35,000 nucleotides of DNA from an uncultured Pelagibacteraceae bacterium (lineage in GTDB: Bacteria > Pseudomonadota > Alphaproteobacteria > Pelagibacterales > Pelagibacteraceae). Numbering within the stretch: position 1 is the first letter of the stretch; each line of letters opens with the position of its first letter. Below are positions 14,654 through 21,309 of this stretch, piece by piece. The position numbers and the translations under genes were made by a program. The stretch lies in contig CACKXA010000005.1 in NCBI GenBank assembly GCA_902604055.1, positions 1 to 35,000 on the forward strand, written 5' to 3'. Under the pieces are notes generated by a model. It made no database searches, was not told the origin of the DNA, and worked only from the letters and a program-made list of their open reading frames with translations.

Positions 14654-14727
14654 GCCTTGTAGCTCAGTAGTAGAGCAGTACCCTGAAAAGGTATGTGTCG
14701 TAAGTGCGATTCTTACCAAGGCCACCA
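14653..14727 (+). tRNA. tRNA-Phe (GAA), with variant D- and T-loops
   Basis: A complete 75-nt cloverleaf with encoded CCA: acceptor GGCCTTG/CAAGGCC, D-stem GCTC/GAGC, anticodon arm GTACC-CTGAAAA-GGTAT with anticodon GAA, variable loop GTGTC, T-stem GTAAG/CTTAC, discriminator A. The GTGTC variable loop and the place near infA fit alphaproteobacterial tRNA-Phe. Two near-universal bases differ: the D-loop AGTAGTA has A at position 18, and the T-loop TGCGATT has G at 55. G19 and C56 are kept. It begins on the last base of the infA stop codon and lies 15 bases before fhs, so it must be cut out of a common transcript or have an internal promoter. Confidence 0.88.
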
Positions 14728-14742
14728 CTAAGCAAGGGTTTA

Positions 14743-16428
14743 ATGAATAAAATAAAATCCGATATTGAAATAGCAAGAGCAGCAAATATTAAACCAATTA
14801 AAGAAATTTTAGAGAAATCAAATATTTCAGACAATCCTTTTAATTTTAGTCCAATGGGACGTCATATAGCTAAATTAAATTTAGAATATATTGATTCTCT
14901 AGAAGAAAAAAAAAGTAATTTAATATTAGTAACTGCAATAACACCAACGCCTGCTGGGGAAGGGAAAACAACTACCTCAGTTGGATTGAATGATGGTTTA
15001 AATAAAATTGGTAAACAATCAATAGTTTGTTTAAGAGAACCCAGTTTAGGACCTTCTTTTGGAATGAAAGGTGGAGCTGCTGGAGGTGGATATGCTCAGG
15101 TTATACCAATGGAACAGATCAACTTACATTTTACCGGAGATTTTCATGCAATTACTTCAGCACACAATTTACTTTCTGCTCTAATAGATAATCATATCTA
15201 TTGGGGAAATAAATTAAATATAGATCCTAATAATGTAATTTGGAAAAGAGTAGTAGATCTAAATGATCGAGCTTTAAGAAAGATAGAAATTAACTTGGAA
15301 AAACTAAAAGCAAATACTCCTAGAAATGATAGCTTTGATATCACTGTTGCTTCAGAAGTAATGGCAATTTTCTGTTTATCAAACAGCGTAGAGGAGCTAG
15401 AAAGAAAAATTGGCAATATTACCGTTGCATATTCAAAAGAACAAAAACCTATATATGCAAAAGATTTAAAAGCCCAAGGCCCGATGACAGTTCTACTAAA
15501 AGAAGCTGTTCGACCTAATGTTGTACAAACTCTTGAAAATAATTTAGCTATTATTCATGGCGGACCATTTGCGAATATTGCTCATGGATGTAATTCAATT
15601 CTCGCAACAAAAACAGCTTTAAAATTATCTGAGTATGTTGTTACAGAAGCAGGTTTTGGTGCTGATCTTGGGGCTGAAAAGTTTTTAGATATTAAATGCC
15701 GTAAAGCTGGAATCAGGCCTAGTTGTGTAGTTGTTGTTGCAACAATAAGAGCTTTAAAAATGCATGGTGGGGTAGAGAAAGAAAACTTAAAAGATGAAAA
15801 CGCTGATGCACTAGAAAAAGGATTGCCTAACCTTGAAAGACATATTGAAAATATTAAGAAATTTGGTTTAGAAGTAGTAGTAGCAATTAATCACTTTATT
15901 ACTGATACCGATAAAGAAATTAAAATTATCCAAGACTATTGTTCAAAACTTAAGGTAAAAGTAAGTCTTTGCACTCATTGGTCTGAAGGAGGAAAAGGAA
16001 CAAAGGATTTAGCAAATAATGTAGTTGAATTATGTGAGAAGAGTGACAAAAGTAAATTTAAATATCTATACTCAGATGAAACTCCCATTTTGGAAAAAAT
16101 AGAAAAAATTGCAAAAGAAATATATAAAGCAAAAGGAATTGAAGTAGATGATACAACTAAGGAAAAAATAAAAAAAATAGAGCAGGCTGGATTTGGAAAA
16201 TTTCCGGTTTGTATTGCGAAAACACAATATAGCTTTTCTACAGACCCCAAGTTAAAAGGAGCACCATCAGGTCATACGCTGCCTATCAGAGAAGTAAGAT
16301 TATCTAGTGGAGCGGAATTTTTAGTCGTTGTTTGTGGATCTATAATGACGATGCCAGGTCTTCCGAGAGTACCAGCAGCTGATAATATTAGATTAAATAA
16401 AAAAGGTGATATAGAAGGTTTATTTTAA
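14743..16428 (+). CDS. fhs: Formate-tetrahydrofolate ligase
   Basis: Interconverts formate + ATP + THF and 10-formyl-THF + ADP. The start chosen is the ATG at 14743; the frame extends upstream only into tRNA-Phe. The 561-aa protein carries the P-loop [12 protein letters not shown] at residues 67-78, [23 protein letters not shown], the GCNSILAT and [14 protein letters not shown] segments, and a C-terminal [16 protein letters not shown], all canonical. In SAR11-like bacteria Fhs may run toward formate and ATP when methyl groups are oxidised. Its stop is nested with that of the convergent hydrolase-like gene (TTAA). Confidence 0.97.
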
Positions 16429-17474
16429 AAATCTATAATTTTCTTAGAGCTGTCAGCCATTGTAAATTCAGCTTTTTTCTTTGAGATTAATTTCATAGAC
16501 TTAAATCCATCAACTTCTTCTATAAATTCATTTAGTTTTTTTCTTGCGCCCTTGCCCATTTTCATTCCTGGCGCATTAATACCTACATCTATAATGACTT
16601 CTGCTCCATTTGCAAAGGCGTTAATATAAGTTGGTATAACTCTGCATTTGCCCGTCATAGCTTCTGTTACCCAAATAGGTTTGTTAATGTCCAAGCTTTT
16701 TAATAGATCTGAGAATTCATCTACCCAAAATTCTTTATCACATTTTCCATCTGGAGGAGTTATGTGGTGTATAGCAGATATATCAAAATGATCTTTAATT
16801 TTTGGTAGAGCCGATTTCCAATATCTTTTGTTTTCTGGAAACATTCCAGCTGCACCAGCCATGACAATCACAGCGCCTTTTTGTTTTGATTTTATTAACT
16901 TTGAAGAAAAATTAAAAATTTCAACAAAATCTTCTTCTTTACCTTTAAAGAACATTTTAAACTCAGGTTCATTCATTATTTGCCAATGTTTAATTGGTTT
17001 AGTTAAGCCTGGCATATCGTTGTTCCCATCACCATCATAACGGTCTACTAATTTTATAAGAAAATTTTTATAATTTTCCATTGAACAAGGTTTGCTTAAA
17101 TATTTTGTAAATCTTTTTCCAAATGGACTTCTGGCCTTTTTTCTATTGCATGATTTTTGTTCCCAGTTTGCATGCGGCCAGATAGTTGCTAAAGTTTTTT
17201 GATTGTGATCTTGTGCGTAAGAAACATATTTATCTGTTTCTTCCCAAGAGAAAACTCCTTGTTCTTTTTCAATTCCATTCCAAATAAAAGGTCCAGGATG
17301 AGGTCTAACCCACTTACCGTCTTTACCTTGCATTCTTTCATCACGCATCTCTGTTAGATCGCCAAATCTTGACTCCGCATAAAGAAAATTAAAACTAAAA
17401 GTTAAGCAAACTAAAGCTAATAAGATTTTTTTTAGACTACTTTTTTTTATATTTTGCAGCTTCTTCAGATCCAC
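16425..17474 (-). CDS. Exported glycoside-hydrolase-like protein (clan GH-A type)
   Basis: The start chosen is the GTG at 17474, 349 aa, preceded by AGGAAG with an 8-base spacer and overlapping the end of fdh by 38 nt; an ATG at 17528 would bury the signal peptide behind 30 residues. A basic N-region and the hydrophobic stretch [17 protein letters not shown] followed by ESRFG give a likely signal peptide, so the product is exported. The mature part resembles a TIM-barrel glycosidase: [20 protein letters not shown] (the look of GH39/GH10/GH5 barrels), WQIMNEPE with putative acid/base E169, and IWVTEAM with putative nucleophile E271. Substrate and even activity are unproven. It is cotranscribed with fdh and converges on fhs. 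Confidence 0.72.
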
Positions 17475-18636
17475 CGGTTGCACTTCCTTTACTATAAGAA
17501 TGGGCACCCATTCCTGCAAGCTGGCCATTCTGAACGATTAAATAAGGATCTCTAATTGGTTTTTTATCGAAGAAACACTCAAGAATTTCTCTAACGCCTG
17601 CAGCATATCTGTATTGAGCTGATAAAGAAGTCCCAGAAGTGTGTGGTGTCATTCCGTGATTAGGCATTGATCTCCAAGCATGATCATTTGGAGCTGGTTG
17701 AGGAAACCAAACATCCCCAGCATAACCACTTAATTGACCAGACTTGAGAGCTTTGGCAATTGCCTCTCTATTACAAATCTTTCCTCTTGCAGTATTAACG
17801 ATATACGCACCTTTTTTCATTTTGCTAATTAGTTTGTCGTCAAATAAATTTTCGGTTTCAGGGTGAAGAGGACAATTAATTGTGACAACATCACAAACTT
17901 TAACCAAAGACTCCACAGAGTCATGAAATGTAAGATTTAATTCTTTTTCAACAGAATCTGGTAATTTATGTCTATCAAAATAATGTAGGTGAACATCAAA
18001 TGGTTTCATTTTTCTTAACGCGTCTAAACCAATACGTCCAGCAGCAACTGTTCCAATATGCATACCTTCAACGTCGTAAGATCTTTGAACAGCATCAGCA
18101 ATATTCCAACCACCTTCTTTTACGATTGCATGTTGATTATGGTAATCTCTTACTAGAGATAAAATCATCATTACTATGTGTTCTGCTACTGATCTTGAAT
18201 TGCAATAAGTAACTTCAACAACGTCTATTTTATTATCCATAGCAGCTTGTAAATCAACATGATCTGATCCAATTCCAGCAGTAATTGCCATTTTTAAATT
18301 TTTCGCTGACTCTATTTTTTCTCTTGTTAAGTAATATGGCCAAAAAGGTTGAGATATAACAATATCAGCATCCACAAGCTCCTTGTCAGCTTTACAACCT
18401 TTAGCGTCTTTGTCAGATGTTACAACTAATGTATGACCATTTGACTCTAGAAATTTTCTCAAGCCTAACTCTCCTGAAACACATCCTAGTAACTCCCCAG
18501 GATTGAAGTCTATTCCTTTTGGAGTTGGAAGTGTCATTCCATCGGGATATTTGTCTAATTTTGGCAGATCAGATAATGGGTAGCTTTTAGGCATCCCTCC
18601 CTTAGGATCATCGTATAAAATACACAGTATTTTCAT
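17437..18636 (-). CDS. fdh: NAD-dependent formate dehydrogenase
   Basis: Oxidises formate to CO2 with NAD+ using no metal or cofactor cluster. The 399-aa sequence matches the Pseudomonas sp. 101 type closely. With the ATG at 18636 residue numbers coincide with that enzyme: P97-F98, N146, the Rossmann motif GTVAAGRIG at 195-203, D221-R222 for NAD specificity, catalytic R284 in NTARGK, Q313 and H332. The frame extends ten residues upstream of this ATG, but those are not part of the known protein. The C-terminal [20 protein letters not shown] tail is also kept. It reads away from metF/demethylase genes across a 104-base regulatory gap and towards fhs. Confidence 0.96.
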   Translation of the reverse strand: MKILCILYDDPKGGMPKSYPLSDLPKLDKYPDGMTLPTPKGIDFNPGELLGCVSGELGLRKFLESNGHTLVVTSDKDAKGCKADKELVDADIVISQPFWPYYLTREKIESAKNLKMAITAGIGSDHVDLQAAMDNKIDVVEVTYCNSRSVAEHIVMMILSLVRDYHNQHAIVKEGGWNIADAVQRSYDVEGMHIGTVAAGRIGLDALRKMKPFDVHLHYFDRHKLPDSVEKELNLTFHDSVESLVKVCDVVTINCPLHPETENLFDDKLISKMKKGAYIVNTARGKICNREAIAKALKSGQLSGYAGDVWFPQPAPNDHAWRSMPNHGMTPHTSGTSLSAQYRYAAGVREILECFFDKKPIRDPYLIVQNGQLAGMGAHSYSKGSATGGSEEAAKYKKK

Positions 18637-18740: not shown

Positions 18741-19469
18741 ATGAAATTTTCATTAGAAATAACTATGAAGACAGACCTTTCAGTTCTACCGAAGGTAAAA
18801 GATGTTTACATAACTATGTTGCCTGGTAATGATTATAAAGATGTAGCTAGTAAGGCTAAAGAGCTAGTGCAAAATGGGTTTAATCCAGTTCCTCATTTTC
18901 CAGCAAGATCAATTAAAAATTTTAATGAATTAAAAGAGTACACCTCTATGTGTAAAGATTTTGGCGTAAAACAAGCTTTGGTAATTGGAGGCGGAGCAGA
19001 ACCTATTGGTGATTACCACTGCTCGTTGCAATTATTAGAAACAGGATTATTTAAGGGGATGAAAATAGGAATTGCTGGACACCCAGATGGATCCCCTGAT
19101 ATATCGGATTCAGATTTAGAAAAAGCTATGAAAGATAAAATGCCATTTGCAGATTACATTGTTACTCAGTGGTTATTAAACCCAAATCCGATTAAGGAGT
19201 TTATTTCTAAACAATCTTTACCAGTTCATGTAGGGATTACTGGGCCTTTAAAAATAAGCAGCTTACTAAAGTTTGCTAGTATTGTTGGTGCAAAAAATTC
19301 TCTAAACTTTCTTAAGTCTAATGCTACTAAAGCTGTAGATTTATTAAAACCTAAAGATCCTAATGAATTAATTGAAAATCTTAAATCTTCTACTGAACAT
19401 TTTCATATTTATACTTTTGGTGGTTTAAAAGAAACAAACAAATGGTTAGAAAAAAATAATTATGCCTAA
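18741..19469 (+). CDS. Methylenetetrahydrofolate reductase-like protein
   Basis: A 242-aa protein of the MetF/FAD-linked reductase TIM-barrel superfamily, predicted to interconvert methyl-THF and methylene-THF. It begins KFSLEIT, which corresponds to the first strand with the catalytic Glu region. Other family marks are FNPVPHFPAR, QALVIGGGAEP in place of the usual RGD-type loop, MKIGIAGHPDGSPDI (family pattern PEGHP), and ADYIVTQWLLNPNPIKEF. It is shorter than E. coli MetF (about 296 aa) and diverged at the GD loop. Its last eight bases overlap the downstream demethylase gene, so it probably handles the methyl-THF that enzyme makes rather than serving methionine synthesis. Confidence 0.83.
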   Translation: MKFSLEITMKTDLSVLPKVKDVYITMLPGNDYKDVASKAKELVQNGFNPVPHFPARSIKNFNELKEYTSMCKDFGVKQALVIGGGAEPIGDYHCSLQLLETGLFKGMKIGIAGHPDGSPDISDSDLEKAMKDKMPFADYIVTQWLLNPNPIKEFISKQSLPVHVGITGPLKISSLLKFASIVGAKNSLNFLKSNATKAVDLLKPKDPNELIENLKSSTEHFHIYTFGGLKETNKWLEKNNYA

Positions 19470-20835
19470 AAAAATTCCGAATTCTTATAAAGTTGAAAAA
19501 GTAAATTATGATAAAGTAAGACACGAAACGTCAGTAGATCAGTCAGATCGACAAGTTCCTTATAATCTAAGGCAAAGTGGACCAACCAAAGTAGAAATGT
19601 TGATTTCAACACGAGTAAGAAAGTCTCCTTATTGGCATCTATCTATGAAAGCAGGATGTTATAGAGCTACAGTTTATAATCGTATATATCACCCAAGAGG
19701 TTATGTTAGACCTGAAAAAGGTGGAGCAATGGTAGAGTACCAAGCAATTAAAAAACACGTAACCATGTGGAATGTAGCAGTAGAGAGACAAATACGAGTC
19801 AAAGGCCCAGATGCAGAAAAATTTACAGATTATGTAATTACGAGAGATGCTAGCAAAATTTCAACAATGAGAGGACGTTATGTTATACTTTGTAATTACA
19901 AAGGTGGAGTTTTAAATGATCCTGTTTTGATGAGAATAGCTGAAGATGAATTTTGGTTTAGTTTATCAGATTCTGATATTGGATTGTATTTACAAGGGGT
20001 TAATGCTGACAAAAGATTTAATGTTGAAATAGATGAAATTGATGCTTGTCCTGTCCAAATACAAGGACCTAAATCAAAAGCCCTAATGAATGATTTAATA
20101 GGCGATCAAGTTGATCTAGACAATATGCCGTTTTACGGGTTAGCGGAGGCAAAAGTAGGTGGTAGAAGTTGTGTTATTTCTCAATCTGGATTTTCTGGAG
20201 AAGCTGGTTATGAAATTTATCTTCGAAATGCAACTTTATATGCAGAAGACATGTGGAATGCTGTTCTTAAAGCTGGAAAAAAACATAAATTGATGGTGAT
20301 AGCTCCTGCACACCACAGAAGAATTCAAGCTGGAATATTATCTTGGGGACAAGATATGGATCATGAACACAATCCCTTCCAATGTAATTTAGGCTACCAA
20401 GTTTCTTTATCTGGTAAAGGAGAGTGGAATAAACAAACAGACTATGTTGGCAAAGAAGCTCTAGAAAAAATGAAACAGCAAATTAAAAATGGAGAAAAAC
20501 CTTATAAACTTCAACTTGTTGGAATGGAATTAGGAGGAAAACCTATAGAAGACTATGCAAATGATTTTTACTTAATTTCCAATTCTAAAGGAGGTAAACC
20601 GGTAGGTTACATAACTTCACCATGGTATCATCCTGAGAAAAAAACAAACATTGCTATGGGGTATGTCCCTTACGAAGGGAATTTAAATAATAACGGATTT
20701 CCAACTGGAAATTTTGGAAAAAAATATAAAGTACATTTACCAAAAAAGTATTCTAACAAACCAGTAGATGCTACTGTTGTTCCAATTCCTTTCACCGAGT
20801 CCTTCCATGCAAATACTAGAGAGACAAAAAAATAG
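19462..20835 (+). CDS. DmdA/GcvT-family THF-dependent demethylase, substrate unknown
   Basis: A 457-aa protein of the aminomethyltransferase fold, predicted to move a methyl group from a substrate to THF. After an N-terminal extension (1-50), residues about 51-320 follow the DMSP demethylase pattern: RKSPYW, KKHVTMWNVAVERQIRVKGPDA (97-118), LNDPV (151-155), VQIQGPKSKALM (198-209), SGFSGEAGYEIY (242-253), and SWGQDMDHEHNPFQCNLGY (294-312). As I recall DmdA it has SGW at the 242-244 position; here it is SGF, closer to GcvT. The length and C-terminal end (VVPIPFTESFHANTRE) also recall LigM/DesA O-demethylases. No gcvH or gcvP is nearby, so glycine cleavage is unlikely. Confidence 0.85.
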   Translation: MPKKIPNSYKVEKVNYDKVRHETSVDQSDRQVPYNLRQSGPTKVEMLISTRVRKSPYWHLSMKAGCYRATVYNRIYHPRGYVRPEKGGAMVEYQAIKKHVTMWNVAVERQIRVKGPDAEKFTDYVITRDASKISTMRGRYVILCNYKGGVLNDPVLMRIAEDEFWFSLSDSDIGLYLQGVNADKRFNVEIDEIDACPVQIQGPKSKALMNDLIGDQVDLDNMPFYGLAEAKVGGRSCVISQSGFSGEAGYEIYLRNATLYAEDMWNAVLKAGKKHKLMVIAPAHHRRIQAGILSWGQDMDHEHNPFQCNLGYQVSLSGKGEWNKQTDYVGKEALEKMKQQIKNGEKPYKLQLVGMELGGKPIEDYANDFYLISNSKGGKPVGYITSPWYHPEKKTNIAMGYVPYEGNLNNNGFPTGNFGKKYKVHLPKKYSNKPVDATVVPIPFTESFHANTRETKK

Positions 20836-20862: not shown

Positions 20863-21309
20863 ATGAGGAATGAAAAGGAATTTTACAAAAAATTTAAACC
20901 TCAATTAACTCCTAAGAGAATGTTAGAACTGGGAGTTTTTGGAGGAGCGTATTTTGCTGATGGAAGTGTAAGGGAATTCCCTAAATCATGGTTTGCTAAT
21001 GCAAAATTAAGCAAAACTTTTGATGTAAATTTAAATCGATTTAAAATTGAGTCAGGTTTGTCCAGAAAAGAGTGGATTGCTAAAGGCTGGATTTTTAAAG
21101 AAGACCCATTAGGTTGGTTTCAATGGTACTGTAGATTTAAAAATGGAAGAAGAATACCTGAAATAGATGAAATTCAAATCAAGAGATGGAAAGCTTTTGG
21201 CGATAGACATGGACCTGCTGTAAAAAAAAATTGTGAAGAAGGAGACTTGCAATGCAGAAGAAGACAAAGGCAAGCTTTATTGCAATGGGCCTATAATCCA
21301 ATTTTTTAG
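20863..21309 (+). CDS. Conserved-looking hypothetical protein linked to the C1 operon
   Basis: A 148-aa soluble protein, rich in Trp and Arg, starting 27 bases after the demethylase gene in the same direction. Visible elements are LTPKRMLELGVFGGAYFADG (residues 15-34), WFANAKLS, GWIFKEDPLGWFQWYCRFKN (about 70-89), and a C-terminal CxxxxxxxC stretch KKNCEEGDLQCRRRQRQALL. It has no signal peptide or membrane span. I have the impression of similar uncharacterised proteins in other bacteria and some eukaryotes, but know no function. The operon position suggests a role in recognising or processing the methylated substrate. Its stop is separated by one base from that of convergent secA. Confidence 0.8.
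   Translation: MRNEKEFYKKFKPQLTPKRMLELGVFGGAYFADGSVREFPKSWFANAKLSKTFDVNLNRFKIESGLSRKEWIAKGWIFKEDPLGWFQWYCRFKNGRRIPEIDEIQIKRWKAFGDRHGPAVKKNCEEGDLQCRRRQRQALLQWAYNPIF

Follow-up and report, generated by a model that had tools for sequence, protein, structure and literature searches.

A DmdA-like protein family of SAR11 and other marine bacteria as a likely tetrahydrofolate-dependent glycine betaine demethylase

Q457, a protein of 457 amino acids encoded in an uncultured Pelagibacteraceae bacterium, raises the question of which methyl donor is used by an enzyme that resembles the DMSP demethylase DmdA but departs from it in signature residues and length. The window, i.e., the whole stretch of 35,000 nucleotides analyzed here, belongs to an assembly of 824 kb that is 74% complete and is probably SAR11. 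Few osmolytes in the sea are as abundant as glycine betaine. In Pelagibacter ubique, betaine methyl groups are oxidized to CO2, and SAR11_1265, located beside metF (SAR11_1264), was described as a DmdA relative of unknown substrate, for which a second DMSP demethylation was guessed (Sun et al., 2011; PMC3160333). Furthermore, P. ubique bhmT is under the control of SAM riboswitches, and SAR11_1264 and SAR11_1265, which show joint changes, do not appear in the list of riboswitch genes (PMC5069961). The first step of betaine demethylation in aerobic marine bacteria has recently been named a knowledge gap and assigned to the cobalamin-dependent MtgBCD, and SAR11 is proposed to depend on BHMT alone (Mausz et al., 2025; PMC12478193). 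In the open-access literature searched, which did not include subscription papers or preprints, SAR11_1265 was named only in PMC3160333 and PMC5069961 without an assigned function, and no description of a folate-dependent route of betaine demethylation was found. We propose that Q457 is likely a tetrahydrofolate (THF)-dependent glycine betaine demethylase; the substrate, the product, the activity, and direct methyl transfer are inferred, and no biochemical or genetic test is available.

The fold of Q457 is shown by sequence and structure comparisons. Both the GCV_T and GCV_T_C domains of Pfam are present, and the GCV_T score of 141.4 bits against a cut-off of 25.6 places the protein in the GcvT/aminomethyltransferase folate-binding superfamily. 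Among solved structures, P. ubique DmdA (3TFH; 156 bits, E 1.2e-44) is nearest in sequence, and it is also the closest fold to an AlphaFold model of Q457 (Z 35.4, rmsd 2.9 Å over 358 residues) within a range of Z 28.8–35.4 for DmdA and T-proteins. The model has a mean pLDDT of 75.7 and a pTM of 0.78, with medium confidence around the site and low confidence in residues 1–50 and 293–298; the active-site residues were compared via alignment alone, without pocket geometry. A preliminary description, made from sequence alone, had reported DmdA-pattern motifs, a Phe in the segment SGFSGEAGYE, and about 90 extra residues, and all three points held when the sequence was re-read: KKHVTMWNVAVERQ is located at residues 97–110, VQIQGPKS at 198–205, SGFSGEAGYE at 242–251, and HNPFQCNL at 303–310, and Q457 exceeds the 369 residues of DmdA by 88.

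Q457 represents a distinct family: when 385 genomes of the class were searched, a sharp break separated a group at 53–84% identity to Q457 from the rest at ~40% or less. Members of the clade are ~50–84% identical and spread over five phyla, and orthologs in records named Pelagibacteraceae are ~82–84% identical. The carriers are mostly marine bacteria, including SAR11, SAR86, and Marinobacter, and the group reaches at least Marinobacter, halomonads, SAR86, HIMB59, Gemmatimonadota, Latescibacterota, and Acidobacteriota; its Marinobacter members include orthologs of Marinobacter maroccanus and M. zhanjiangensis (L110, L133). Many matches in a related SAR11 family (f2) list one in-frame TAG (L021–L023 and others). 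The f2 reading frames read from those loci begin at about residue 18 of Q457 and are intact (447 aa), which places this codon in the unconserved beginning of the alignment and makes the f2 start a later one. In the tree of 38 rows, a check that the preliminary description had suggested, Q457 does not fall inside the DmdA clade: its family is supported at 100/100 with one adjoining sequence of 53% identity, its sister group comprises DmdA and others, and a joint clade with DmdA alone is rejected (AU p 1.65e-5). Long outgroup branches leave the outgroup order unsure, and LigM was not included in the tree.

Exclusion of Q457 from DmdA, LigM, and GcvT is likewise shown. Identity as DmdA is rejected by the NCBIfam PRK12486 score (244.5 bits against an equivalog cut-off of 410), by the tree, and by a separate true DmdA in the window genome, which scores 478.7 bits against the same cut-off and 484 bits to 3TFH and carries Tyr at the Trp position. 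Identity as GcvT is rejected by the NCBIfam gcvT score (134.4 bits against 235.85); a better GCV_T match of 269 bits is encoded elsewhere in the genome on contig C21, beside reading frames of 126 and 955 aa that have the size of gcvH and gcvP. A methoxy-aromatic demethylase of the LigM/DesA type, suggested by the length and the MetF neighbor, is excluded by scores of 32.5 against 580 bits for LigM and 45.7 against 800 bits for DesA, and the structural match to LigM is much weaker (Z ~21 against 35). The score for TMAO demethylase is also far below its cut-off (NCBIfam NF053776; 156.4 bits against 1100), and a role as the partner of dimethylglycine dehydrogenase was rejected in view of the GcvT domain that dimethylglycine oxidases themselves have.

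The residues that set the family apart are only partly those to which attention had first been drawn. The view of a Trp as part of this DmdA segment held in part: Trp is present in 3TFH and in neighboring clades, whereas DmdA orthologs of the same genus have Tyr or Phe (SGYSKQGGFE in the window genome and SGFSKQGGYE in congener G051), and the change from Trp to Phe alone is therefore not decisive. The resemblance of SGFSGEAGYE to GcvT is present but does not reflect ancestry, because the tree places the Q457 family on the DmdA side of a split supported at 100/100. In an alignment of 48 orthologs, F244, Q241, E247, E251, and Y253 are each conserved in 48/48. A stretch from about residue 25, VDQSDRxVPxNLRQSG, is nearly invariant (Q27, R30, P33, N35–Q38, and G40 in all 48; V25, D26, S28, and D29 nearly so), although structure prediction is poor at this motif (pLDDT 31–39). 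The near invariance of this stretch, together with the full conservation of F244, indicates that the extra length is not due to chance. Across 25 other superfamily sequences aligned, the position of Gln241 is always occupied by Arg and that of Gln307 by Glu or Asp. On the basis of the alignment, Q241, Q307, and the N-terminal motif constitute a more distinctive signature than Phe244. The further claim, that the fold and THF use are kept while the methyl donor differs, is supported because Q457 does not group within DmdA in the tree, a separate DmdA is encoded in the genome, and the gene context points to betaine rather than DMSP; the fold is shown, and the reaction itself is inferred.

The features of the locus are summarized in Table 1.

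Table 1. Positions of Q457, its distinctive segments, and its neighbors within the window
Feature	Position	Strand	Remarks
fhs, formate--tetrahydrofolate ligase	14704-16428	+	NCBIfam PRK13505, 885.1 bits (cut-off 652)
NAD-dependent formate dehydrogenase	17437-18633	-	NCBIfam PRK07574, 668.9 bits (cut-off 329); proposed last step to CO2
metF-like gene	18741-19469	+	Shares 8 bases with the start of Q457; proposed to oxidize 5-methyl-THF to 5,10-methylene-THF
Q457	19462-20835	+	457 aa, intact; proposed glycine betaine:THF methyltransferase (betaine demethylase)
Conserved N-terminal motif of Q457, ~residues 25-48	19534-19605	+	Absent from aligned DmdA
SGFSGEAGYE segment of Q457, residues 242-251	20185-20214	+	Preceded by Q241; family-conserved residues
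Conserved 148-aa protein	20863-21309	+	Directly downstream of Q457; role uncertain

The metF-like gene has no Pfam or NCBIfam match; its nearest solved relative is 5,10-methylenetetrahydrofolate reductase (chain 7xg9; phmmer E 2.9e-35), and it is kept beside Q457 in the SAR11 relatives read. The formate dehydrogenase is kept next to metF–Q457 in another genome of the order, G005 (98%), and fhs also adjoins metF–Q457 in genomes of the same order. From these gene assignments, it is inferred that the window encodes the C1 route from 5-methyl-THF to CO2 except for FolD. No betaine gene is located next to Q457 in the window locus, and dimethylglycine dehydrogenase was not recognized among the DAO-domain matches of the 74%-complete genome, in which SoxB is present. 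The 148-aa protein has no Pfam or NCBIfam match; an 88% identical ortholog occupies the same place in G005, and the protein is not beside Q457 in the other members of the order that were read. Between fhs and the formate dehydrogenase lies a reading frame of 367 aa (16425–17528, minus strand), whose first codons overlap the formate dehydrogenase frame and whose only match, to glycosyl hydrolase family 10, is sub-threshold (E 0.019). Elsewhere in the genome, the DmdA with Tyr in place of the pocket Trp is preceded upstream by genes for an acyl-CoA dehydrogenase, a ligase, and an enoyl-CoA hydratase (L025, 513–7074).

Gene neighborhoods in other genomes, which are shown, connect Q457 with both C1 oxidation and dimethylglycine. 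Among 80 loci, a methylene-THF-reductase (MetF)-like gene lies within 3 kb of Q457 in 48, a dimethylglycine oxidase or dehydrogenase lies within 8 kb in 51, and fhs or formate dehydrogenase is found nearby in a number of them. Vicinity to the dimethylglycine enzymes extends over Alphaproteobacteria, Gammaproteobacteria, Gemmatimonadota, Latescibacterota, and Acidobacteriota. The HIMB59-type order is SoxA, SoxG, dimethylglycine oxidase, metF, and Q457, in which the oxidase matches N,N-dimethylglycine oxidase of Arthrobacter over the full length (734 bits). In Marinobacter, the order runs from Q457 through metF, fhs, and GbdR to a dimethylglycine dehydrogenase relative, and in some SAR11 loci BHMT, a DMGDH-like gene, and a ProX/ProW-like importer are beside metF and Q457; several SAR86 loci of Q457 lack any gene of the pathway within 8 kb. 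MetF-like, fhs, and formate dehydrogenase neighbors are expected if the product of Q457 is 5-methyl-THF, and since dimethylglycine is the product of betaine demethylation, Q457 could fill the missing upstream step. Pairing with GbdR and with dimethylglycine-oxidizing enzymes is thus met across the family, and not at the window locus.

Two further observations concern these neighborhoods. A Rieske oxygenase that is weakly GbcA-like (123 and 104 bits against 670) is encoded near metF–Q457 in several SAR11 genomes; at L177 (12332–13528, plus strand) it is directly divergent from metF–Q457, and a similar gene lies at the low end of the L144–L147 locus. Its substrate may possibly be another betaine or quaternary amine. 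In genus g3 (L027, 7754–10296), a second GcvT/DmdA-like enzyme, ~29% identical and with a GWSNQ motif, directly follows Q457; its clade is a further demethylase-like group, which is found elsewhere beside homocysteine-methyltransferase-like and DMGDH-like genes.

The co-occurrence of Q457 with a betaine regulator is shown in Marinobacter, in which the regulator adjoining Q457 passes the GbdR cut-off (495.9 against 480). GbdR over the cut-off is present in 32 of 81 genomes, and Q457 is present in 28 of these 32 and in 1 of the 49 GbdR-negative genomes (Fisher p 2e-16, uncorrected for relatedness), i.e., 28 of the 29 Q457-bearing genomes are also GbdR-positive. The four GbdR genomes without Q457 have GbcA instead (three over the cut-off and one GbcA-like at 444 bits), and no GbcA was found among the 49 GbdR-negative genomes. 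Four genomes with both enzymes carry two GbdR genes, one per enzyme neighborhood; by the listed coordinates, one is ~2–3 kb from GbcA and the other ~3–18 kb from Q457. The Q457 locus of G553 contains metF, fhs, formate dehydrogenase alpha, and FdhD, whereas the GbcA locus of G558 contains SoxBDA and glutathione-independent formaldehyde dehydrogenase (745.8 against 637); we infer that these are the sets expected if Q457 releases 5-methyl-THF and GbcA releases formaldehyde. The contrast rests on three loci in two Marinobacter genomes, without a genus-wide count, and relatedness among genomes inflates the co-occurrence statistics.

The distribution of other betaine demethylases was considered in 50 Q457 genomes, of which five have GbcA over the cut-off, three have an MttB match, and 16 have BHMT. 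The 28 of the 50 in which none of the three is found all carry a relative of dimethylglycine oxidase/dehydrogenase; enzymes of the Bmt/MmuM type were covered only via the BHMT query. In the window genus, Q457 is found in 15 genomes and BHMT in 11, never together (chance 3%, uncorrected for relatedness, with incomplete genomes). By contrast, both are present in many members of SAR11 family f2, and four halomonad-type Q457 genomes also have GbcA.

In the proposed mechanism, Q457 would catalyze the reaction glycine betaine + THF -> dimethylglycine + 5-methyl-THF, with N5 of THF directly accepting one methyl group from the quaternary nitrogen, much as DmdA takes one from the DMSP sulfonium. Next, 5-methyl-THF would be oxidized to methylene-THF by the adjacent MetF-like enzyme; FolD, for which no gene lies in the window, formate--THF ligase, and formate dehydrogenase would take the carbon on to CO2, and dimethylglycine would continue via dimethylglycine oxidase/dehydrogenase and sarcosine oxidase where present. 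Betaine is favored over DMSP as the substrate in that DMSP is served by the separate DmdA. The P. ubique observations cited above on bhmT, SAR11_1264/1265, and the oxidation of betaine methyl groups (PMC5069961; PMC3160333) also speak for the proposal.

Three alternatives remain to be weighed. The one that survives best, although unlikely, is that the methyl donor of Q457 is a different osmolyte with a quaternary ammonium or sulfonium group (carnitine, choline, a proline or pyridine betaine, or another sulfonium), again with THF as the acceptor, and that betaine genes are nearby since the breakdown of these compounds frequently leads to betaine or dimethylglycine. The weakly GbcA-like Rieske oxygenase (104–123 bits) near Q457 in several SAR11 genomes and the lack of a recognized dimethylglycine dehydrogenase in the window genome speak for it; however, the pairing with GbdR, the exchange with GbcA in Marinobacter, and adjacency to dimethylglycine oxidase in several phyla favor the conversion of betaine to dimethylglycine. 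A second alternative, put forward for SAR11_1265 in 2011 (PMC3160333), is that Q457 acts on methylmercaptopropionate and so removes the second methyl group of DMSP; it has little to recommend it. DmdA is the closest structural relative of Q457, and genomes of the same order have a ligase-like gene beside fhs, the N-terminus of which resembles that of the dmdB-like gene of the window genome (by sequence inspection only). On the other hand, the Marinobacter, SAR86, and Gemmatimonadota loci have betaine rather than DMSP genes, and the window genome has a DmdA cluster elsewhere, in which a ligase, an acyl-CoA dehydrogenase, and an enoyl-CoA hydratase are also encoded. In addition, quaternary ammonium and sulfonium groups are better methyl donors than a thioether, which counts against this alternative. 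Finally, demethylation of dimethylglycine or sarcosine to methylene-THF, by which Q457 would help a flavin enzyme like the GcvT domains of dimethylglycine oxidase, is suggested by the shared superfamily and by adjacency to dimethylglycine oxidase and sarcosine oxidase, but is very unlikely because those flavin enzymes carry their own GcvT domain, methyl rather than methylene transfer is the better fit to the MetF-like neighbor and to N152/D153, an Asn-Asp pair that DmdA also has and that is Asp-Asp in GcvT, and Q457 exchanges with GbcA, not with DMGDH.

If betaine demethylation by Q457 is true, a folate-linked enzyme in SAR11, SAR86, and Marinobacter would be a route missed by surveys counting only mtgC, bhmt, and gbcA, and would tie betaine to energy-yielding C1 oxidation rather than to methionine synthesis. 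A bolder reading, which we consider more likely than not in the absence of activity data, is that demethylation of betaine onto folate by a single enzyme, independent of oxygen and cobalamin, operates in SAR11, SAR86, and many marine bacteria. Such a route could explain betaine use in cells without GbcAB, MtgBCD, or BHMT and the oxidation of betaine methyl groups by SAR11 when methionine is plentiful.

Among known systems, DmdA (3TFH, PRK12486) shares with Q457 the fold, the Asn-Asp pair, non-oxidative methyl transfer (inferred for Q457), and a probable THF site, in which S171, E251, and Y253 of Q457 appear to be the conserved folate residues S, E, and Y of PMC7487153; it differs in lacking the ~90 extra residues with VDQSDRxVPxNLRQSG, in the residues at the positions of Q241 and Q307, and in its gene neighborhood. 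GbcAB, the Rieske glycine betaine monooxygenase, resembles Q457 in the proposed net step from betaine to dimethylglycine and in the pairing with GbdR, but has an unrelated fold, uses O2, and yields formaldehyde, whereas Q457 would yield 5-methyl-THF. The cobalamin-dependent MtgBCD and the homocysteine-dependent BHMT likewise transfer a methyl group from betaine, with folds and acceptors different from those of Q457. LigM and DesA, the vanillate and syringate O-demethylases, are THF-dependent and of similar length (~455–475 aa), although LigM is only ~16–20% identical to Q457 in the structural alignment. A further counterpart is SAR11_1265 of Pelagibacter ubique HTCC1062, which is DmdA-like and lies beside metF SAR11_1264 (PMC3160333); it is likely the ortholog of Q457, as inferred from these two features and not from its sequence.
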